From positions 186,001 through 250,000 of the forward strand of contig JAZKBK010000002.1 in the NCBI GenBank assembly GCA_040388625.1: a stretch of DNA of 64,000 nucleotides. Reading direction: 5' to 3'. Within the stretch, counting starts at the first letter, position 1. Every line of letters begins with the position of its first letter. Origin of the DNA: Gemmatimonadota bacterium (GTDB lineage Bacteria; Gemmatimonadota; Gemmatimonadetes; Gemmatimonadales; Gemmatimonadaceae). Below, piece after piece: positions 44,946-56,449 of the stretch. The notes below the pieces were generated by a model, which saw nothing but the letters and a program-made list of their open reading frames with translations, was not told where the DNA came from and made no database searches. A program made the position numbers and the translations under genes.

Positions 44946-45407
44946 CTACCCCGGCTCTCCCGCCAGCCCCTTGATCTTCCGTACAGTACGCTCGCGCGCC
45001 TGCACCGACCTGCAGATGATCAGAATCGTATCATCGCCGCCAACAGTGCCGAGTATGTCCGGCCACCCCTCACCGTCCAGCGCGCTCGCAATCGGTTGCG
45101 CGCCACCCGGAACCGTGCGCAGCACCGCCATCTCGCTCACCCCGTCGATCCGCATGAACAGCTGCGGCAGCAACGTATCCAGCGCGACCCGCGCCTCCTC
45201 GATGTTGCCGTCGGTCACCGCGTAGCGCGCGCCCTCCGCCGTCGGGACTCGGGCTATCCGGAGCTCGCGCAGGTCCCGCGAGAGCGTAGCCTGCGTAACG
45301 TCCCAGTCCCGTCTCAGAAGCAGTTTTCTGAGATCTTCCTGGCTCACCACCGGATGATTCTCTATGGTCTCCAGGATGGCGTTCTGCCGCTCGCGCTTGT
45401 TGGCCAT
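44946..45407 (-). CDS. argR: Arginine repressor ArgR
   Basis: A 153-residue repressor from ATG 45407; the upstream frame is not conserved. The N-terminal winged helix is ANKRERQNAILETIENHPVV with DVTQATLSRDLRELRIARV as recognition helix. The C-terminal oligomerisation domain contains GTVGGDDTILIICRS, the GTIAGDDTI-like arginine-binding signature. The hexamer binds arginine and represses arg genes. It is divergent from argG across 119 bases, the region expected to hold ARG boxes. Confidence 0.96.
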   Translation of the reverse strand: MANKRERQNAILETIENHPVVSQEDLRKLLLRRDWDVTQATLSRDLRELRIARVPTAEGARYAVTDGNIEEARVALDTLLPQLFMRIDGVSEMAVLRTVPGGAQPIASALDGEGWPDILGTVGGDDTILIICRSVQARERTVRKIKGLAGEPG

Positions 45408-45526
45408 TTCGAGAAGATAGCTCTCTCTGGCTCCGCCCGGGACGGATAGTTGCCATTCCGGACATGTCCGACTATTTATACATGTTGACCGCATAAAATT
45501 TCATTCACAAATAGAAGAGCGCCGCC
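45408..45526. promoter_or_regulatory. argR-argG divergent control region
   Basis: An AT-rich core (45472-45516) contains two imperfect inverted half-sites (CTATTTATACATG and CATTCACAAATAG, 10 of 13 bases pairing), one of which reads TGAATGAAATTTTATG on the minus strand and resembles an ARG box. A 12-base perfect palindrome CGGACATGTCCG is at 45459-45470. Exact boxes are uncertain. Confidence 0.5.
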
Positions 45527-46773
<1,247 letters not shown>

Positions 46774-46774
<1 letters not shown>

Positions 46775-46872
46775 TAGGGGCAGGCCCCCGTGCCTGCCCC
46801 GGTCTCGTAGGGGCAGGCCCCCATGCCTGCCCCGGTCTCGTAAGGGCGGGCCCCCGTGCCCGCCCCCCGTGA
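46774..46872. repeat. Three tandem 33-base GC-rich units
   Basis: Units at 46774, 46807 and 46840 each follow GTAGGGGCAGGCCCCC-TGCCTGCCCC-GGTCTC (with the third diverged) and each can fold on itself. A further degenerate piece lies at 46911-46931. The third unit and its flank match 53413-53454 in about 37 of 42 to 43 positions. The array may act as the argG terminator. Confidence 0.85.
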
Positions 46873-46929
46873 CGCCAATCACCTCACCACCGTTCGTTCG
46901 CGTGGTCGCCGGATGCCCCGTGCCCGCCC

Positions 46930-47469
46930 CTAGGATGTAATAGTCAGGATGTCGGTCGTAGCGTCGAATGTTGCCGCAAGGCTGGTGAGGTTGCCGGTCG
47001 GTTGGCCACCTGTCCAGTGGCCATTTGCTGCGAAGCGAGCGCCATGACAGGGGCATGCAAAGCTTCCACTCGCGATCCCCACCGTGCATCCGAAATGCGG
47101 ACAGATGAGCGAGAACGCTGAGAATGTGCTCGCGCTCGTCCTGACCGCTGCGACGGGCGTTCCCTGACCGGAATCCACGCGCGCGATGCCACCAATATTC
47201 GCGAGTGCCGGAAAGTTTGAAATCGTCACGTTGAGCGGACCGTTATTCCCACCATTGCCACCGGGCCCCGTGGTGGAACCTGCACCTCCACACGCCGTGA
47301 CAAGAAGCGTCCCGATCGCCGCTACGGCACTCCTTACAACGAACTCTCGACGGTCAACAGCTGTGGAGTCGACCACATCTGCCTGCGCCCTTCCGGCCTT
47401 GCACTCTTCGCAAGAAGATACGCGCAGTTTCAGCGTACCTGCATCTGCCAGCTCGTTGTCATGTGACAT
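46930..47469 (-). CDS. Tat-exported Rieske protein with high-potential-type disulfide cysteines
   Basis: A 179-residue Rieske protein. The twin-arginine region is DRREFVVRSAVAAIGTLLV with TACGG, a possible lipoprotein Cys. The cluster motif is CPHFGC ... CPCHGARF, giving Cys-x-His and Cys-x-x-His ligands plus the extra two cysteines of the disulfide found in bc1/b6f-type proteins, so a fairly high potential is predicted. A CEEC motif lies before the Tat arginines. A leader with GAGG precedes the ATG. It is six bases downstream of a second Rieske gene. Confidence 0.9.
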   Translation of the reverse strand: MSHDNELADAGTLKLRVSSCEECKAGRAQADVVDSTAVDRREFVVRSAVAAIGTLLVTACGGAGSTTGPGGNGGNNGPLNVTISNFPALANIGGIARVDSGQGTPVAAVRTSASTFSAFSLICPHFGCTVGIASGSFACPCHGARFAANGHWTGGQPTGNLTSLAATFDATTDILTITS

Positions 47470-47475
47470 GAGGCC

Positions 47476-48015
47476 TCACACCTTGAGAGTCGCCGCCGTC
47501 CAGGCAGCCAGATCTTGATCGCTTCGCAGCATGTTGTCGACGTCAACGATGATCATGTTGGTCGCATCGCGCTTGATCGTGAATCGATCCATGTTGCGCG
47601 TCGCGCGGCCGCTGATGAATTCGCCGTCCGGTTGGTACTTGGAGTGATGCTTGGGACATTGGAAACGGTGATCTGCGTCGTCCCACCGAAGTGCGGTACG
47701 CTGATGCGGGCACGATAGATTGAAGGCGAAAATCGCATTCTGCCACCTGACGAGAATCACCTCGTTGCCGTGATCGATTTGTGCTCCGTCGGTTGTCGGT
47801 AGCGGATAGCTGACGGTCTGCGTCCCACCTGCCGCGCTTCGTCTTCCGGTCACGAAATCAACATTCATTGCGGCCGCCTTTCGCGCGGAAACCCCAATCG
47901 CGCCCATCGAAACCACAAGGGCTGCTATTGCACTGTCCCGCAGGAATGTCCGCCGACTTTGCTCGACTCCACACGCCTGGCAGGGTGTGGCGCTTTCGTC
48001 ATTGTTCCTCATCAT
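47476..48015 (-). CDS. Tat-exported Rieske protein lacking the disulfide
   Basis: A 179-residue Rieske protein. The Tat signal is SRRTFLRDSAIAALVVSMG. The cluster motif is CPHQRTALRW ... QCPKHHSKY, the four ligands (C, H, C, H) without the extra cysteine pair, so a lower potential than its neighbour is predicted. A CQAC motif precedes the arginines. The start sits in a 13-base tandem duplication that repeats the ribosome-binding site and ATG. It leads the second Rieske gene by six bases and follows the membrane-protein gene by 88. Confidence 0.88.
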   Translation of the reverse strand: MMRNNDESATPCQACGVEQSRRTFLRDSAIAALVVSMGAIGVSARKAAAMNVDFVTGRRSAAGGTQTVSYPLPTTDGAQIDHGNEVILVRWQNAIFAFNLSCPHQRTALRWDDADHRFQCPKHHSKYQPDGEFISGRATRNMDRFTIKRDATNMIIVDVDNMLRSDQDLAAWTAATLKV

Positions 48016-48025
48016 TGTTCCTCAT
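48000..48025. repeat. 13-base tandem duplication at the Rieske start
   Basis: Two identical units (48000-48012 and 48013-48025) read CATTGTTCCTCAT. On the minus strand each carries a GAGGAACA site and an ATG. Thirteen is not a multiple of three, so the copies put ATGs in different frames, and only the one at 48015 (or the following 48012) opens the Rieske protein. Confidence 0.9.
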
Positions 48026-48103
48026 TCGAATTCATCCGGTTTCAGGTCCAGGAATATTCAGTGCAAGAGTCGCTACCGTCGGGCCGTTGGCGGGTTCGAT
48101 TAT

Positions 48104-48634
48104 CTAACTGTTCACAAGAATCGTCCCCGCAAGAACGATGGACGTCCAGAGCACAATGCTCGCTATGGCGGTATGGCGCAGCTTGCCCCAGAGCAGTTGC
48201 TCATTCGCGACATTGACATGCAACTGGGAACGGTTGCGGAGTGCTGTCTCTGTACGCTCGAGCATTACCCCGTTGGCGAGGAGCAGCACGACAAGCGTCA
48301 TCTTGATCAGAAACACTGGTGAAGTTCCGAATGTCTCTACATCCGACGTAGCAAGCAGAACTCCGCTTCCGAATAGCACGCCCAGACCAATCAGGACTGG
48401 CTGGTGAACGTCCTTGATCTCGCGAAGTAGCATGGCACGCTCGTCGGACGTGCCTCGCAGCGCCCTGAACGTTGCGCGGTCGGCTGCGATCGCGAATCCA
48501 CCCGCGAACAGAACCCCAGCGAGATGGAGGAACGTAACTCCGTCCGAAATGACCTTCGAATTGCTGAAGAGCGACTGCCACGGCTTGAGAACACCGGCGA
48601 GAGTGTGGAGTCCGGTCGTGTAACTGAGAATCAT
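48104..48634 (-). CDS. Small integral membrane protein with helix-borne histidines
   Basis: A 176-residue protein from ATG 48634 (an in-frame GTG at 48679 is the alternative and overlaps the upstream stop). About four helices are visible: VTFLHLAGVLFAGGFAIAAD, VHQPVLIGLGVLFGSGVLLA, FLIKMTLVVLLLANGVML and LRHTAIASIVLWTSIVLAGT. Histidines sit at the starts of three of these helices, which could bind haem (inference). No database family was recognised. It is in the four-gene leftward operon with two Rieske proteins. Confidence 0.75.
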   Translation of the reverse strand: MILSYTTGLHTLAGVLKPWQSLFSNSKVISDGVTFLHLAGVLFAGGFAIAADRATFRALRGTSDERAMLLREIKDVHQPVLIGLGVLFGSGVLLATSDVETFGTSPVFLIKMTLVVLLLANGVMLERTETALRNRSQLHVNVANEQLLWGKLRHTAIASIVLWTSIVLAGTILVNS

Positions 48635-48660
48635 CGGGGATTTCGTTTGCTGGAGACTGG

Positions 48661-49323
48661 TTATTTGTCGAACAGCCACATGATGGCTGTCCCTGCAGTG
48701 GCAAGCGCCATCGATCCGACCGACACAGCCCGATGCCGCTGAGCATCGTGGATGCTGTTCTTCGCGTTACCACCGATAGCGCCCGCCCATGCAAACCCGG
48801 CATCGGCGCCAAGCATCGCAACGGAATGAACTATTCTCAGAGTACGGTTCGACGGATCCTTGCGCGAATCCCAGAGATTCCAAGCCCCGGTTACGGTATT
48901 CACGCCGAAAAGCACGGCAAGACCGCCTGCGACGCCGACGTGGGCCGCCTTGAGCGATGATGGTGGAAATCCGGTTCGCTCATCACGAAGAAGTCTCTCA
49001 CCCAACACGTACTCGGCGCCAAACAGCGGCAGCTCCGCATAACTGGCGACCCGGTGAACAGTGAGTCGCGTGTAGTACGCATCGCTGTATTCGATCGCGC
49101 GCGGGCGGTGCGTCGTGTCACCGGGTAAGGACTCCATCGTATCCTGCTCGATACGGGGAGAAAATCCAAATGGAATCAGACGTGGCCCGACAGACACCGC
49201 GGACGTCGTACTACCCGAATCAGGCACGGCCAGGGAACCCGGGGTGCGGCTGCCGAAATACCTGGCCTCTGGCATTGATGGCGGAGTTGCTGCCAGAATC
49301 ATAGCGATCAGTGCGGTGATCAT
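48661..49323 (-). CDS. Exported/membrane protein with four histidine-bearing helices
   Basis: A 220-residue protein. A signal sequence (MITALIAMILAATPP) precedes a hydrophilic region of about 70 residues, then four hydrophobic helices near residues 89-110, 123-148, 162-190 and 197-218. Each helix begins or carries one His: VHRVASYAEL, AAHVGVAGGL, RIVHSVAMLG and HRAVSVGSMA. Regular one-per-helix histidines suggest a bis-haem b-type four-helix bundle, but this is inference. No family was recognised. It is first in the leftward operon and divergent from the TonB receptor. Confidence 0.75.
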   Translation of the reverse strand: MITALIAMILAATPPSMPEARYFGSRTPGSLAVPDSGSTTSAVSVGPRLIPFGFSPRIEQDTMESLPGDTTHRPRAIEYSDAYYTRLTVHRVASYAELPLFGAEYVLGERLLRDERTGFPPSSLKAAHVGVAGGLAVLFGVNTVTGAWNLWDSRKDPSNRTLRIVHSVAMLGADAGFAWAGAIGGNAKNSIHDAQRHRAVSVGSMALATAGTAIMWLFDK

Positions 49324-49443
49324 TGGAGATTGTGAAAGTGGCCGTGTTAGTTTTTAGACAGTGGACGCGAGAGACACGGTGCCGATGGTCAAAGGAAGAA
49401 CGTCCGAGCAGGCAGTATTGTGACGCAAGGCAACGGAAGCGGC

Positions 49444-51900
49444 ATGCCATCACGGATGCGCGCGCGCGGCCCGTCGGTGCGCCGCGCTCTGGTCAGGCGC
49501 GGACGGCTGCTGTGCGTCGTGGCCTGTTGTGCATTATCGAGCCAAGTCCTCGCGGCGCAAGCGCTCTCCGACACGCTTCATGCGCCAAGTCCGTCGACCG
49601 GAGCCGTGTACGGTACGGTCAGCCTGGCGACAGGTACGCCAGTGGTGCATGCCCGGATTGAAGCGGTCGGGACCCATGACACGACATTCTCTGACAGTCT
49701 CGGTTCGTACACTATTGCCCACCTTCCTGCAGGAACACGCACGCTCCAGATTACCCGCGCCGACCTCGATCCGCTGACGATTCAAGTAATTGTGCCAGGC
49801 ACAGGGAAGCTGCACGTCGACGTCATTCTCTCGCAGTCCGTGGTGGTTGCGCCAGCGCGTCTGTCGCCAGTACACGTGAAGTCCTCACAGGCGACCGCGC
49901 TCGATACGGATGTCAGAGCCCCCGTCCGGATACCAGGAACCTGGGAGTGGACGGGCAATATCCAGGACGCATCCGAGACAAGTGGCGAGCCGGACGCTTT
50001 ACGATTGTTGGCGGGCGACCCACGGGAGATGATGCGCCCAGACGGCTACGACGGTACCGCCGTGAATGCAGCGACAGGTTCGCTGGCAGATCGTGTGTTC
50101 GTCGATGGGTTGCCCATGTGGAACGCGGTACATGGCCTCGGCGCGCTGACCGCGATCGATCCCGATGTCGTGAGCGGTATCAAAATATCCGACGGCTCGG
50201 CCTCTGCACGCTCTGACGATGCACTTTTCGAGACAGCCGATCTGCAAACTCGCGAAACCACTCTTACCAAGCCGTCTTTCGGCACCGGCTTCGGCCCGAC
50301 TACCATGCGTGCATGGTGGGCTGATCCAATTCGCGTCGGTACGATCGACGGACAGCTGCTGGTCGCGGCCCGTCGCAATTCTGATGCTATGACATCCGCC
50401 CGAAGCAATGCGAACTCGGTAACCGATCGTTGGGGCGATGGTCTTACAGTGCTGTCAATACATCACGGACGCAGCAATGTGCGGCTTGTGGCGGTTGGCA
50501 GTGGAGATCGCCTCGTCGCCGACATGGATGAGGCAGCGGTCGGCGCGAAGAGTGATGCAACGTTGGTAACGAGTTCAGACCACGCGCTCAGGGTACCGTG
50601 GCAATCGATGACTGTTGGCGGTGTGTGGACAGAGCAGTTGTCGCCATCATACAAACTCCTGACGCGTGCGTGGAATGCGGAATTCACGGCTGGCACGAAT
50701 GCTGGCGCTGCACCCGGCGTTGCAACGATGTCCAATCGCGCTCGCGATGTAGGCTTTGCGAGTGAGCTCGACTTGGCATCGTTTGCGATCGGAGCGTCGA
50801 TCGAAAAGATTCACACGTCGTATGCTGCTGAGGTATCTTCGGATGATAGCCTTCCGATCCGCGATATCGAGCACGCTGGCACTGGCAGTATGTTCGCCAG
50901 GACCACGCATTACGGGGCAACTGCAGATCCTGCAGTCATTGCTGCTTACGCCGAGCGACGTTGGGGTGACGTTGGTGGACATTGGTTCGCAATGTCCGGG
51001 GTGCATCTAACTTCGCTGTCAGGCCGCACACCAAACATCGAGCCTCGGTTATCCGTATCGGTCGACCTCGGAAAGCGTATGTGGATGACCGCAGGCTACG
51101 CGGATACGCATCAGTTTGTTCAGGCGCTCAGAGACATCAGACTCACCCCCGGTGCGCTCGTGCCCGTGGGCCTGCCGATAGCGGCTGGCTCCTCGGGGGT
51201 CCCCGTTGCTGCAGCTCGAACTCTCACCGCGGACGTCAGCAAGAACCTCGGCTTCGACACGCGGGTTACCGTCGACGCATACGATCGGAAGTTCGATGGC
51301 TTGATCTTGCCGACGTCAACAACGACGCCGCGCGCTTTTGGAGATGCATTCGATGCCATGGACGGTCAGATCTTCGGCTACGGGGGTGCTGTACGATCGA
51401 CGATACAGAACCTCAGCCTCCAGGTGACGTATGGTTTTCAGCACGCGATCTTGACGCGAACTTCTGCGCCGTACCCACTGCCTCGCGAAACCGCACAGAC
51501 TACCTCGGCCATCGTCGAATTGCGAGCACGACCGACAACCACTTTGAAGATACTGGGGTCGTTCGGATCCTCATTCCTCGGTATCCAGAGCCCAGCGAAT
51601 GCGGACGCTGACGGGGCCGGGGCAAACGTCCGAGAGGAAGACGGAATACCCGAAGCGCGAACGTTGAGCGCAGTTGGGTTGACGTCGGATCCCCTTCCGA
51701 CATATATGCGAGTCGACATGGGCGTCAGCCATGAATGGCGTGCCACCAGAGCAGGCAGAATTATTCTCACCACAACCCTGGCAAATATCTTCGACCGATC
51801 GAACGTGGTTGCCCTTCCGCCGCGTAATGAGCGAGACGGACAGCGTTTCTTCGGTCTGACACCCAGATCTCTGATGGTCGGAATTACCTGGCGCCGGTGA
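49444..51900 (+). CDS. TonB-dependent receptor-like outer-membrane protein
   Basis: An 818-residue protein. ATG 49444 is preferred (a GTG at 49420 in the same frame is possible). A basic export signal ends near VLAAQ. Next comes a carboxypeptidase-regulatory-like domain at about 33-110 (GAVYGTVSLATGTPVVHARIE), a plug-like region at about 130-270 (ADRVFVDGLPMWNAVHGLGA), and a C-terminal barrel ending TPRSLMVGITWRR, an aromatic-poor but barrel-like end. It lacks an STN domain. It is divergent from the Rieske operon and followed by an ECF sigma and anti-sigma pair, so it may serve as their surface signal or target. Confidence 0.82.
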   Translation: MPSRMRARGPSVRRALVRRGRLLCVVACCALSSQVLAAQALSDTLHAPSPSTGAVYGTVSLATGTPVVHARIEAVGTHDTTFSDSLGSYTIAHLPAGTRTLQITRADLDPLTIQVIVPGTGKLHVDVILSQSVVVAPARLSPVHVKSSQATALDTDVRAPVRIPGTWEWTGNIQDASETSGEPDALRLLAGDPREMMRPDGYDGTAVNAATGSLADRVFVDGLPMWNAVHGLGALTAIDPDVVSGIKISDGSASARSDDALFETADLQTRETTLTKPSFGTGFGPTTMRAWWADPIRVGTIDGQLLVAARRNSDAMTSARSNANSVTDRWGDGLTVLSIHHGRSNVRLVAVGSGDRLVADMDEAAVGAKSDATLVTSSDHALRVPWQSMTVGGVWTEQLSPSYKLLTRAWNAEFTAGTNAGAAPGVATMSNRARDVGFASELDLASFAIGASIEKIHTSYAAEVSSDDSLPIRDIEHAGTGSMFARTTHYGATADPAVIAAYAERRWGDVGGHWFAMSGVHLTSLSGRTPNIEPRLSVSVDLGKRMWMTAGYADTHQFVQALRDIRLTPGALVPVGLPIAAGSSGVPVAAARTLTADVSKNLGFDTRVTVDAYDRKFDGLILPTSTTTPRAFGDAFDAMDGQIFGYGGAVRSTIQNLSLQVTYGFQHAILTRTSAPYPLPRETAQTTSAIVELRARPTTTLKILGSFGSSFLGIQSPANADADGAGANVREEDGIPEARTLSAVGLTSDPLPTYMRVDMGVSHEWRATRAGRIILTTTLANIFDRSNVVALPPRNERDGQRFFGLTPRSLMVGITWRR

Positions 51901-51951
51901 TTTGATTCACGTGCGAACTGTCACAAATGCCTCCGTACGCACGTTCTATTC

Positions 51952-52491
51952 GTGAAACCCGCGCCGGAACTCATGGGTCCTGACCTGGCATTCGAGGACG
52001 CGGTTACTCAGCTCTTTCGTCAGAAATTCGCGTCACTGTTTCGCTATCTCTATCGTTTGTGCGGAGACTCTGATCTGGCGTCGGACCTCGCGCAGGAGGC
52101 GTTCGTGAGACTGTACGAGCGTGGACGCGTTCCACATGAGCCGGCCGGGTGGCTCATTACTGTGGCGACTAACCTGTATCGCGACGCGGAGCGTACAGGA
52201 AAGCGACGCACGCGTATAAACACCAGTCAGCAAGCCGATCCATCGAATCATATCGACTCAACAACCCCGGATAACCAGCTTATCGCTGGCGAGACCCGGG
52301 ACCGTGTACGAGCTGTACTCGCAATGCTTCCGTTACGCGACCGTCAGCTTCTTCTGCTACGTCATGAGGGATACAGCTACCGCGAATTGGGACACATCCT
52401 TGGAATCCAGGAGACGAGCGTGGGCACGCTATTACTGCGCGCGACTCGCGCGTTCCAGAGTGCGTTCATGGCAGCGGGGTCACGCGAATGA
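51952..52491 (+). CDS. ECF sigma-70 factor
   Basis: A 179-residue sigma factor from GTG 51952 (ATG 51973 is the alternative). Region 2: LFRYLYRLCGDSDLASDLAQ EAFVRLYERG near residue 28. Region 4: LAMLPLRDRQLLLLRHEGYS YRELGHILGIQETSVGTLLL near residue 122. The DNA-binding helix-turn-helix is intact. It follows the TonB receptor by 51 bases and overlaps the anti-sigma gene by ATGA, so all three are probably one transcription unit. Confidence 0.91.
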   Translation: MKPAPELMGPDLAFEDAVTQLFRQKFASLFRYLYRLCGDSDLASDLAQEAFVRLYERGRVPHEPAGWLITVATNLYRDAERTGKRRTRINTSQQADPSNHIDSTTPDNQLIAGETRDRVRAVLAMLPLRDRQLLLLRHEGYSYRELGHILGIQETSVGTLLLRATRAFQSAFMAAGSRE

Positions 52492-53282
52492 CATCACATC
52501 TGACGGATGCCAGCCTGGCCGCGATGCTGGAACGCGACGATTCCGTCGCTGATGACGTGCGTTTGCATCTCGCGGAATGTGACCAGTGTCGCGCCGCTCT
52601 CACCGCGGCCAGGACTCAGATCATAGAAGTGAACCGCCTGCTGGAGCTACTGACGGTAACGCAACCAGAGATAGATCCAGTCGAGTTTGTTAGACAGGTC
52701 GCATCGGGTACCGGCCTTACAAGAGAGCACGCGCGCACGCGTCGTCTACGATCTCGTCGATTTGCACACAACGCGATTGCCGCAGCCATCCTCTTGAGCA
52801 GCGTCGCAGCGGCCGCGCTTGTAACACCCGCTACCATGCGTCGATTACTTCACGTGGCCGCCGTCGCATCCCGAATCACCTCAGACCAGCCATCCGCCGC
52901 TCCCGGAAAGTCGGATCGATCGCAACCATTACCGCGTGGCGTCGAGATATCTCCGCATGGACGAGTCGACGTTCTCTTTCGCTCCAGCCAGTTGGCTGGC
53001 TCCGTCCGCGTTGTTTCGGCTTCAATCGCGGAGCTCAGCGTCACAGGCACTGACGCGGGACCAACCTATACGGTGGGGAGCAACTCCATCATTGTCACGA
53101 ACCACCCCTCGGATTCGCTCAGCTTCGTCGTCGGGGTACCCGCACTTTCGGACACTGATACGGTGTACATCCATGTTGCGGGACAAATCGTATACTCGAA
53201 CATTGGCAATCGCGTAATCGCACCGCTATCAGCTGACCAGAGCGGTCAGATAGTATTGCCTTTCCAGAACTTGCGGCGCTGA
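52488..53282 (+). CDS. Zinc-finger anti-sigma factor, single-pass membrane protein
   Basis: A 264-residue protein starting inside the sigma stop (ATGA). The N-terminal zinc-binding anti-sigma motif is HLAECDQC near residue 26 (H-x3-C-x2-C) within a ZAS-like helical domain. One transmembrane helix is at about residue 95-115 (AIAAAILLSSVAAAALVTP). The last 140 residues are beta-rich and should face the periplasm. It is expected to sequester the sigma factor and release it on an envelope signal. Confidence 0.87.
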   Translation: MTSHLTDASLAAMLERDDSVADDVRLHLAECDQCRAALTAARTQIIEVNRLLELLTVTQPEIDPVEFVRQVASGTGLTREHARTRRLRSRRFAHNAIAAAILLSSVAAAALVTPATMRRLLHVAAVASRITSDQPSAAPGKSDRSQPLPRGVEISPHGRVDVLFRSSQLAGSVRVVSASIAELSVTGTDAGPTYTVGSNSIIVTNHPSDSLSFVVGVPALSDTDTVYIHVAGQIVYSNIGNRVIAPLSADQSGQIVLPFQNLRR

Positions 53283-53412
53283 CGGCGCGATCACAGGGCG
53301 TCCTGGACCTGTCGTGAAGGCCCTAAGGCATTGGTCTTATTGCGTTTACCTTTATATATGACATGGCAAGCGGCATCCACGCAGACTGCGGACGACGCAT
53401 CCGCTTGCCCGG

Positions 53413-53454
53413 GCCTGCCTCGATCTCGTACGGACGGCCTCCCGGTACCCGCCC
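53413..53454. repeat. Copy of the argG-flanking GC-rich repeat
   Basis: A 42-base stretch beginning GCCTGCCTCGATCTCGTACG matches the third unit of the array after argG (46825-46866) at most positions. It ends 29 bases before argH. The remaining intergenic part (53283-53412) is otherwise featureless apart from an AT-rich patch at 53337-53360. Confidence 0.8.
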
Positions 53455-53483
53455 CTGCAGAATCCACGCGATACCTTACGTAA

Positions 53484-54893
53484 ATGACCGCCGACTCCCA
53501 CAAACTCTGGGGTGGCCGCTTCGCCGCGCCCACCGCGCACGCACTCGACGCACTCAATCGCTCGATCGCCACCGACTTCCGTCTCTGGCCGTTCGACATC
53601 CGACTCTCCCAGGCGTGGGCCTCCGCGCTCGCTGAAGCTGGCGTCCTCACGGAAGAAGAGCGCGATCAGATCCGCGGCGGCCTCGACGTCGTCGCGGAAA
53701 AGCTCGCCAGAGGCGCGCAACCGGAAGAGTCCGACGAAGATGTGCATACGATGATCGATCGCATGCTCCACATCGAGGTCGGCGAACCCGCATCACGCCT
53801 GCACACCGGCCGCTCGCGCAACGATCAGGTAGCAACCGCCACACGCATGTGGACGATGGACGCATCAGCCAGAGTCGATACGGCCATTCAGGGTCTCCAG
53901 CGCGTAATGCTCGAGCACGCAGAGCGATTACGCACGACGCTGATCCCCGCGTACACACACATGCAGCGCGCCCAGCCGGTCTCCGCCGCACACTGGATGC
54001 TCAACCACTTCTGGCAGCTCGAGCGCGATCGCATTCGTGTGGCAAATGCCGCGGCCTCCGCATCGACCCTCCCGCTCGGCTCCGGTGCAATCGCCGGATG
54101 TGCGTTCCCCGTACCGCGCGACCAGATTCGCAAGGAGCTTGGCTTCGCGAGCATCTCCCGGAATTCGATTGACGCCACCGGCGATCGTGACTTCGTTGCC
54201 GACATGCTGTACGCCATGACGATGCTCGGCGTACACCTGTCCCGTCTCAGCGAAGATTTGATCCTGTACGGCTCCAGTGAATTCGGATTCGTAACCTTCG
54301 GCGATACGTTCAGCACCGGATCGAGCATGATGCCGCAGAAACGCAACCCTGATGCGCTCGAGATCGCACGCGGCTCCGCCGGAAGAATGCTCGGCAACCT
54401 CACGTCCATCGTAGCAACGATAAAGAGCCTGCCGAGTGGCTACAACAAGGACCTGCAGGACGACAAGCGCCCCATGTTCGATTCGGTAGATACCATGCTG
54501 CTCGTGCTCCCCGCCGTCGCCGGAACACTCGGCGAGCTCCGCTTCAACGCGCAGCGCATGCGCGCCGCTCTCTCATCCAGCATGATGGCAACGGACCTGG
54601 CCGACTATCTCGTCGCCAAGGGCACCAGTTTCCGCGAAGCGCACGGCGTCGTGGGTACTCTCATTCGCACCAGCGAAACAAACGGTGTCGAGCTGGACAA
54701 GATGCCGTTCAAGACATTTGCGGCCGCACATCCGTCGTTCGACCACGACGTATTCGACTGGCTCTCGCCTGATGCCTCGGTCGCTCGCCGCAACGTCCCT
54801 GGCGGAACAGGCCCCGATGCAGTAGATGATCAGATCACCGCGGCGCACTCGGCACTAGGCGCGGCTGTCCGCAGGTTGCAGCTCATTCCTTGA
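53484..54893 (+). CDS. argH: Argininosuccinate lyase
   Basis: A 469-residue cytoplasmic enzyme splitting argininosuccinate to arginine and fumarate. The fumarase/aspartase signature GSSMMPQKRNPD near residue 278 is complete. LHTGRSRNDQVAT near residue 107 and YTHMQRAQPVSAAHW near 155 are the substrate loops. Length is normal. Its usual neighbour argG is 6.7 kb upstream; the intervening block is on both strands and flanked by repeats. Confidence 0.98.
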   Translation: MTADSHKLWGGRFAAPTAHALDALNRSIATDFRLWPFDIRLSQAWASALAEAGVLTEEERDQIRGGLDVVAEKLARGAQPEESDEDVHTMIDRMLHIEVGEPASRLHTGRSRNDQVATATRMWTMDASARVDTAIQGLQRVMLEHAERLRTTLIPAYTHMQRAQPVSAAHWMLNHFWQLERDRIRVANAAASASTLPLGSGAIAGCAFPVPRDQIRKELGFASISRNSIDATGDRDFVADMLYAMTMLGVHLSRLSEDLILYGSSEFGFVTFGDTFSTGSSMMPQKRNPDALEIARGSAGRMLGNLTSIVATIKSLPSGYNKDLQDDKRPMFDSVDTMLLVLPAVAGTLGELRFNAQRMRAALSSSMMATDLADYLVAKGTSFREAHGVVGTLIRTSETNGVELDKMPFKTFAAAHPSFDHDVFDWLSPDASVARRNVPGGTGPDAVDDQITAAHSALGAAVRRLQLIP

Positions 54894-54907: not shown

Positions 54908-56449
54908 ATGTCCGGCACGCCCGACGAAACACCCACAGGTCCCGATCTATCCGCGGGAATTCCAGCATCATCGGTCGCAGACGGCGCCATGCTGCTTGGT
55001 CATGTAGGTAACGATCCTGTTCTCGTCGCGCGCACCGGCGGGTCGCTGTACGCAATTGGTGCAACCTGTACGCACTACGGCGGACCACTCGCCGAAGGAA
55101 TAATCGTCGATGACACCGTTCGTTGTCCGTGGCATCATGCGTGCTTCAGCCTCAAGACAGGTGAGCCGTTGCGTGCGCCCGCACTGGATCGCGTCGCATG
55201 TTACCGCGTCGAGGAAAGTGCCGGCACCGTGTTCGTGCGCGACGCCATTGAGCCGCCATCGGCGTACCTGCGCAAGCTTTCCAGTCCTCCGACATCAATC
55301 GTCATAATCGGCGCCGGCGCCGCCGGCGTTGCCGCCGCGGAAATGCTGCGCAGATGCGGCTACACCAATTCGATCAAGCTCTTCGACCAGCTTGAGACGC
55401 CACCGGTGGATCGCCCCAATCTTTCCAAGGATTATCTCGCGGGCACGGCAGAAGAGGAATGGGTCAATCTCCGGCCCGATGATTTCTACACGTCACACGA
55501 TATCGAGCTGATTCGCGGCCGCCGCGTGAGTCGCATCGACACCAGGGCACACACCGTCCTCACGGATGACGGCGCGACCACGAAGTTCAGCGCGCTGCTT
55601 CTGGCGACCGGCAGCTCACCCGTGCGTCTTCCCGTGCCGGGCGCCGACCTGCCCACAGTGCACTATCTGCGCACACTCGACGACAGCAAGGCTATCATCG
55701 CAGCTGCACAAACCGGTAAGCGTGCTGTCGTTATCGGTGCAAGCTTTATTGGTCTCGAAGTCGCTGCATCACTTCGCGCGCGCAATGTGCAAGTCACCGT
55801 AGTTGCGCCGGAATCCTTGCCGCTCGAACGGATCCTCGGTTCCGAGCTTGGCAGAATGGTGAAGGCCTTGCACGAGAGCAAGGGTGTCACTTTCAAACTG
55901 GGTGCGAACGTCAAGTCCATCACGCCGGATGCGGTTCAGCTCGCCGATGGCACATCGCTTCCGGCAGACTTCGTTGTCGTCGGCGTGGGAGTTCGTCCCG
56001 ACGTTGCAATTGCGCAGGATGCCGGCATCAAGGTCGATAACGGCGTCGTGGTCAGCGCGACACTCGAAACGTCCGCCCCTGGAATTTTTGCCGCCGGTGA
56101 TATCGCATCGTGGCCCGATCCGCGCTCTGGCCAGATTCGGGTCGAGCACTGGGTCGTTGCGCAACGCCAGGGACAGACCGCCGCGCGCAACATGCTGGGT
56201 GCGAATGAGGCGTTTACACTCACTCCGTTCTTCTGGAGCCGTCACTACGATCTGCAGATCAACTATGTCGGCCGGTCGTCCCGCGACGACAAGCGTAAGG
56301 TCGATGGTGATCCGATGAAGCACGACTGCACTGTGACATTCGCGCCGTCGGGAGATGTTGTCAGCGCGCAGGCCGACGTCGGCCGCGATCGATCCAATCT
56401 ACTGGCCGAAGCGCGGCTGGACGGCGAAATTACGCAGCGTGATTCCTGA
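54908..56449 (+). CDS. Rieske-ferredoxin reductase fusion (AIF3-like FAD oxidoreductase)
   Basis: A 513-residue protein. Residues 18-118 are a Rieske domain with CTHYGGPLAEG ... CPWHHACF (C, H, C, H). Residues 128-420 are a FAD/NAD(P) pyridine-nucleotide disulfide oxidoreductase fold with GAGAAGVAAAEMLR near residue 135, LLATGSSPVRLPVPGAD near residue 232 and GIFAAGDIASWPD near residue 396. A small C-terminal domain follows. Family members move electrons between NAD(P)H and an iron-sulfur partner. No signal peptide is seen, so it is cytoplasmic. It lies 14 bases after argH and 12 before crcB. Confidence 0.91.
   Translation: MSGTPDETPTGPDLSAGIPASSVADGAMLLGHVGNDPVLVARTGGSLYAIGATCTHYGGPLAEGIIVDDTVRCPWHHACFSLKTGEPLRAPALDRVACYRVEESAGTVFVRDAIEPPSAYLRKLSSPPTSIVIIGAGAAGVAAAEMLRRCGYTNSIKLFDQLETPPVDRPNLSKDYLAGTAEEEWVNLRPDDFYTSHDIELIRGRRVSRIDTRAHTVLTDDGATTKFSALLLATGSSPVRLPVPGADLPTVHYLRTLDDSKAIIAAAQTGKRAVVIGASFIGLEVAASLRARNVQVTVVAPESLPLERILGSELGRMVKALHESKGVTFKLGANVKSITPDAVQLADGTSLPADFVVVGVGVRPDVAIAQDAGIKVDNGVVVSATLETSAPGIFAAGDIASWPDPRSGQIRVEHWVVAQRQGQTAARNMLGANEAFTLTPFFWSRHYDLQINYVGRSSRDDKRKVDGDPMKHDCTVTFAPSGDVVSAQADVGRDRSNLLAEARLDGEITQRDS

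Follow-up and report, generated by a model that had tools for sequence, protein, structure and literature searches.

Rieske proteins acting with quinol-linked membrane haems are familiar mainly from cytochrome b complexes. The stretch of Gemmatimonadota DNA analysed here (64,000 nucleotides; hereafter the window) encodes two Rieske proteins in one operon with two small membrane proteins, and a preliminary description took these for a small, possibly new periplasmic electron-transfer module. What is this operon, how are its membrane proteins matched to its Rieske proteins, and what might it do? The operon is a conserved electron-transfer module without a name in the databases, found in many Gemmatimonadota with its gene order kept, and it is probably an undescribed device that shuttles electrons between membrane and periplasm; our literature search found no published description of the four-gene module. 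The preliminary view of an electron-transfer unit is upheld, although the term periplasmic is too narrow, because half of the module is membrane-embedded. A conserved operon that combines Rieske proteins with small membrane proteins of another kind, one of them apparently dihaem, would broaden the picture of how Rieske proteins and haems work together, and concrete genes and residues are now named for testing.

Layout and conservation of the operon

Read along the minus strand from 49323 to 46930, four genes follow one another with short gaps:

48661..49323, minus strand: M220 (220 aa), membrane protein of four helices, predicted to be a b-type cytochrome with two bis-histidine haems; H90, H128, H166 and H197 invariant
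48104..48634, minus strand: M191 (176 aa), four-TM membrane protein, distant relative of the DUF2214/CopD/HemJ clan; invariant H37, H77, K111, D52 and R53 (176-aa numbering)
47476..48015, minus strand: R2 (179 aa), Tat-exported Rieske [2Fe-2S] protein without the disulfide cysteines and with the Ser/Tyr pair; Pfam Rieske 34.3 bits, motif counts
46930..47469, minus strand: R1 (179 aa), probable Tat lipoprotein, Rieske [2Fe-2S], with the disulfide cysteines here and Ala/Phe replacing Ser/Tyr; Pfam Rieske 34.4 bits, motif counts

The open reading frames thus lie where the preliminary description had placed them, and its further observations of two Tat-exported Rieske proteins, of helix histidines in both membrane proteins and of the absence of a standard cytochrome b were reproduced, with four histidines proving invariant in M220 and two in M191; PF00033 was found neither in the operon nor anywhere else in the genome to which the window belongs. 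M191 has an alternative GTG start at 48679, but the ATG at 48634 is the more likely one, because some close homologues begin there. Between R1 and the next gene (46770-46930), the window contains short G+C-rich direct and palindromic repeats, GGGGCAGGCACGGGGGCCTGCCCCTACGAGACC-like.

We surveyed M191, M220 and R2 in 298 Gemmatimonadota genomes. M191 was found in 87 of them and M220 in 90, and R2-type proteins were widespread; counting strong hits, all three were present in 77 of the 87 M191 genomes (Fisher p ~1e-47 to 1e-49 for co-occurrence of the module genes, uncorrected for relatedness). A search of gene neighbourhoods, as had been suggested in the preliminary description, places M220, M191 and R2 close together on the same strand at 69 loci in 68 genomes, R2 lying 3' of M191 in all of these loci and M220 5' of M191 in 68. 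The genomes that carry the module represent several families of the phylum. Plasmid searches for the module gave no match, and, for spread outside the phylum, a scan of one genome collection with strict peptide patterns returned close relatives only.

R1 is the next gene in order in many module loci; of 92 strong R1 loci, 68 have M220 no more than 3 kb away, and in 23 loci the two genes adjoin directly. M191, for its part, adjoins R2 in 77 of 95 loci. Seven genomes (G027, G128, G170, G172, G182, G248 and G290) carry the M220–R1 pair without detected M191, and two more (G080 and G105) the M191–R2 pair without detected M220, although absences are uncertain in draft genomes. In some loci (L114, L125) an unrelated gene stands between the two pairs. 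Since M220–R1 and M191–R2 can occur apart, each membrane protein apparently has its own Rieske partner, and the module appears to be made of two separable pairs.

The membrane proteins M220 and M191

The preliminary description treated the two membrane proteins as alike. Their relationships and the placement of their histidines separate them: M220 looks like a dihaem protein, whereas the histidines of M191 apparently lie near opposite membrane faces and its relatives share one histidine and one lysine with it. Neither protein of the window reached a Pfam cut-off or matched an NCBIfam model.

In M220, none of H90, H128, H166 and H197 varies among 37 homologues or among the 36 sequences of an alignment (A1) with a median core identity of 44%, in which histidine makes up less than 3% of residues. 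Four helices each have one of these histidines close to the N-terminal end, the helix limits being taken from a low-confidence model, and the median spacing of the histidines is 37/38/31. In an antiparallel bundle, the first and third would accordingly share a membrane face and the second and fourth the opposite one, although the topology of M220 is ambiguous. The human b561 protein Dcytb holds two haems in four central helices, with H50/H120 and H86/H159 as ligands (PMC6123691), and M220 resembles it in the order and spacing of its four histidines (37/38/31 against 36/34/39), which can be paired first with third and second with fourth. M220 differs from b561 proteins in passing no cut-off (best E 0.0041 for PF01292 and 0.2 for PF03188), in a negative profile comparison with Gemmatimonadota b561 proteins (E 0.41), in having seemingly four core helices in all, and in its pairing with Rieske proteins, as none of 30 checked b561 loci had a Rieske neighbour.

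The preliminary suggestion of a haem-bearing membrane protein holds up for M220, whose histidines do not vary and whose family matches are all sub-threshold, mostly to DUF4079 (22 of 36 members, best 4e-5), DUF420 (nine) and prokaryotic b561 (eight). Ten members were searched at E 0.1: one or more of these families (DUF4079, DUF420, Ni_hydr_CYTB) came up for six of them, and the same ten sequences reversed gave no match. The structure models were poor (pLDDT 57 and 39), because only 3-4 close sequences were used; the histidine pairing of M220 is not readable from the model, and fold searches with these models found only generic helical bundles. Designed haem bundles (4D2), which a profile search of the PDB with M220 hit, were discounted, as no stretch passed alone. 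Judging from its sequence, M220 is probably a dihaem cytochrome that works like b561 while standing outside the b561 family.

M191 has two invariant histidines, in 33 of 33 and 34 of 34 homologues. DUF2214 was weakly matched by 25 of 32 homologues (best E 1.2e-7, Pfam), although the protein of the window scores 20.3 bits, below the cut-off of 34.1, and a profile comparison aligned M191 with true DUF2214 proteins over nearly its whole length (E 1.1e-5). Weaker matches were to HemJ, DUF6644 and CopD; for HemJ, UPF0093 was weakly matched in 12 of 32 and TIGR00701 in three of 32, with no Pfam or NCBIfam cut-off reached. M191 has the overall length and helices of DUF2214, HemJ (UPF0093) and CopD proteins, and the histidine of helix 1 and the lysine of helix 3 are common to M191 and its DUF2214/HemJ relatives. 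These similarities support a distant kinship of M191 with this clan. The second invariant histidine, in contrast, is specific to M191, and none of nine true DUF2214 loci contained a Rieske gene; together with the b561 loci, this indicates that the Rieske link is specific to the module among the loci checked. The charge pattern of M191 apparently places its two histidines near opposite membrane faces. Therefore a bis-histidine haem between them is unlikely, and haem in M191 is doubtful.

The kinship of M191 with CopD, DUF2214 and HemJ, the DUF420 matches of M220 and the poorly supported b561 fold are what would be expected if the membrane proteins were not haem proteins at all, and either bound a metal (copper, as CopD may) or assembled or matured the Rieske proteins. 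We consider this improbable, as the layout of M220, with two histidine pairs in four helices, would more readily be that of a dihaem cytochrome than of a mononuclear metal site, and no other Rieske proteins are known to need such membrane partners.

The Rieske proteins and their predicted potentials

Both soluble partners are clear Rieske proteins: R1 and R2 score 34.4 and 34.3 bits with the Pfam Rieske model (cut-off 20.3), the CxH...CxxH ligands are invariant in their homologues, and twin-arginine motifs are found in both. A lipobox, VTAC in R1 and present in 24 of 29 homologues, makes R1 probably a Tat lipoprotein, while 34 of 39 R2 homologues have an AxA-type cleavage region. On the cytoplasmic side, immediately before the twin arginines, 37 of 38 R2 and 24 of 26 R1 signal peptides (A3, A4) have a CxxC-like cysteine pair, as do R1 and R2 of the window; none of six other candidate Tat signals in the loci, few of which are convincing, has it.

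From the disulfide cysteines, present in R1 and missing in R2, the preliminary description had called R1 bc1-type and R2 low-potential. The cysteines are as described, but the assignment is not supported. The disulfide is found in only seven of 29 R1 homologues, the two cysteines being present or absent together, and is missing from all 39 R2 homologues, whereas the second shell of R2 has Ser in 38 and Tyr in 35 of 39 and that of R1 has Ala and Phe in their place, each in 26 of 29. Ser raises the potential of a Rieske cluster by ~130 mV and Tyr by ~65 mV, although one natural exception to this rule advises caution (PMC12954380). The second shells thus appear oppositely tuned, and R2 is predicted to have the higher and R1 the lower potential, probably the reverse of the earlier assignment. 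The high-potential (bc1-type) set of disulfide plus Ser/Tyr is complete in neither protein.

Several known systems invite comparison. R1 and R2 match the Rieske chains of b6f and bc1 complexes in the PDB, and the module shares with these complexes a Rieske protein and, if M220 is as predicted, a membrane b-type protein; it differs in lacking PF00033, in having two Rieske proteins, one of them a lipoprotein, and in its other small membrane proteins. The best NCBIfam and PDB matches of R2 include AioB, the small subunit of arsenite oxidase and likewise a Tat-exported Rieske protein, but R2 scores 36 against an equivalog cut-off of 95.65, and no molybdenum large subunit is a conserved neighbour in ~40 module loci.

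Variants of the Rieske proteins were also seen. Some R1 homologues (L125, L126, L127, L148, L149) contain two Rieske domains in tandem in a single frame, and four loci of one genus (g4; L143, L144, L145, L146) encode lipoproteins of ~500-940 aa with a Rieske domain at either end and Ig-like-looking repeats between. The idea that an M220 domain is fused inside such long tandem proteins was rejected, as the middle resembles Ig-like repeats. The genome of the window has six Rieske domains, and it encodes a second R2-like Rieske protein (38% identical) directly after a DUF2231 membrane protein (L100:6817-7888; G000:C5:384828), possibly a variant of the same membrane–Rieske pairing.

A proposed electron route and its alternatives

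We propose that the two pairs of membrane and Rieske proteins transfer electrons from the membrane to the periplasm, with M220 as a b561-like dihaem cytochrome that is likely quinone-linked, a reading for and against which we find the evidence about evenly balanced. M220 would carry a b haem close to either face of the membrane, two in all, with H90/H166 and H128/H197 as ligands as in b561, and would link R1, the predicted lower-potential Rieske lipoprotein, by electron exchange to the membrane, most likely to its quinone pool. M191 would dock or serve R2, the Tat-exported protein of predicted higher potential. The most likely flow would run from quinol via M220, R1 and R2 to a periplasmic acceptor, of which the direction and the acceptor are guesses. 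For comparison, in MsrPQ a membrane haem protein supplies electrons from quinol to a periplasmic redox partner exported by Tat; that partner, MsrP, is a molybdenum enzyme, however, and the module differs in that no such enzyme is its constant neighbour.

A quinol oxidase in which a dihaem cytochrome and Rieske proteins, evolved apart from cytochrome b, feed a cytochrome c oxidase would be an analogue of complex III. The absence of PF00033 from the genome of the window fits this idea, as does a survey of the phylum, in which only 23% of Gemmatimonadota genomes had petB and whose authors suggested complex III modules that had gone unrecognised (PMC9426454), a suggestion on which the module bears given this scarcity of the bc1 cytochrome b gene. 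Against it, the same genome has an alternative complex III cluster, identified from an NrfD-type subunit gene with neighbouring genes for an iron-sulfur subunit and a cytochrome c, and therefore the module is no substitute for complex III in this genome. Nor did the co-occurrence test support a replacement of bc1: cytochrome b is present in 49 of 87 module genomes and missing from 38 (Fisher p 0.45). As the module is independent of cytochrome b and co-exists with an alternative complex III, it cannot be read simply as a replacement of complex III, and since in addition no cytochrome c is its constant neighbour (~40 loci), we think a complex III analogue quite unlikely. In its broadest form, our proposal would have a b-type cytochrome unrelated to cytochrome b working directly with Rieske proteins, as a second, independently evolved Rieske–dihaem complex that oxidises quinol through two separable pairs of different potential; this we offer tentatively and with more doubt than confidence.

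The genes beyond M220 raise a further alternative:

49324..49419, no strand: intergenic region from which M220 and the receptor gene diverge, searched for a sigma-70-type promoter
49420..51900, plus strand: TonB-dependent-receptor-like outer-membrane protein (CarboxypepD_reg plus Plug), adjoining or near the module in 9 of ~40 loci
51952..52491, plus strand: ECF sigma factor, recurrent neighbour (8 loci)
52488..53282, plus strand: probable anti-sigma factor with an N-terminal HxxxCxxC-like motif and without a family match, recurrent neighbour (8 loci)

The search of 49324..49419 gave no match to a sigma-70-type promoter. The recurrence of receptor, sigma and anti-sigma genes divergent from or upstream of the module, in 8-9 of ~40 loci, could mean that the module is the redox arm of metal or substrate acquisition, reducing a compound imported by the receptor, such as ferric iron, under ECF sigma/anti-sigma control; the b561 protein Dcytb reduces ferric iron (PMC6123691). 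These neighbours are missing from most loci, however, their conservation partly reflects shared descent within the genus, and no known iron-uptake gene is a constant neighbour. We therefore regard an acquisition arm as unlikely, and the receptor-like gene as probably accessory to the module. A terminal enzyme was likewise no constant neighbour in the ~40 loci, which counts against our own proposal too, but electron transfer by two membrane–Rieske pairs remains the reading that we prefer.

In the window, the module and the receptor, sigma and anti-sigma genes lie between likely argR–argG and likely argH (44946-54893; arg genes named by eye from the sequence), and the arrangement on the argG side is the same in another locus of the genus (L007). 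About 5.6 kb from the module, at 54908-56449, the window encodes a Rieske domain fused to a pyridine nucleotide-disulphide oxidoreductase.
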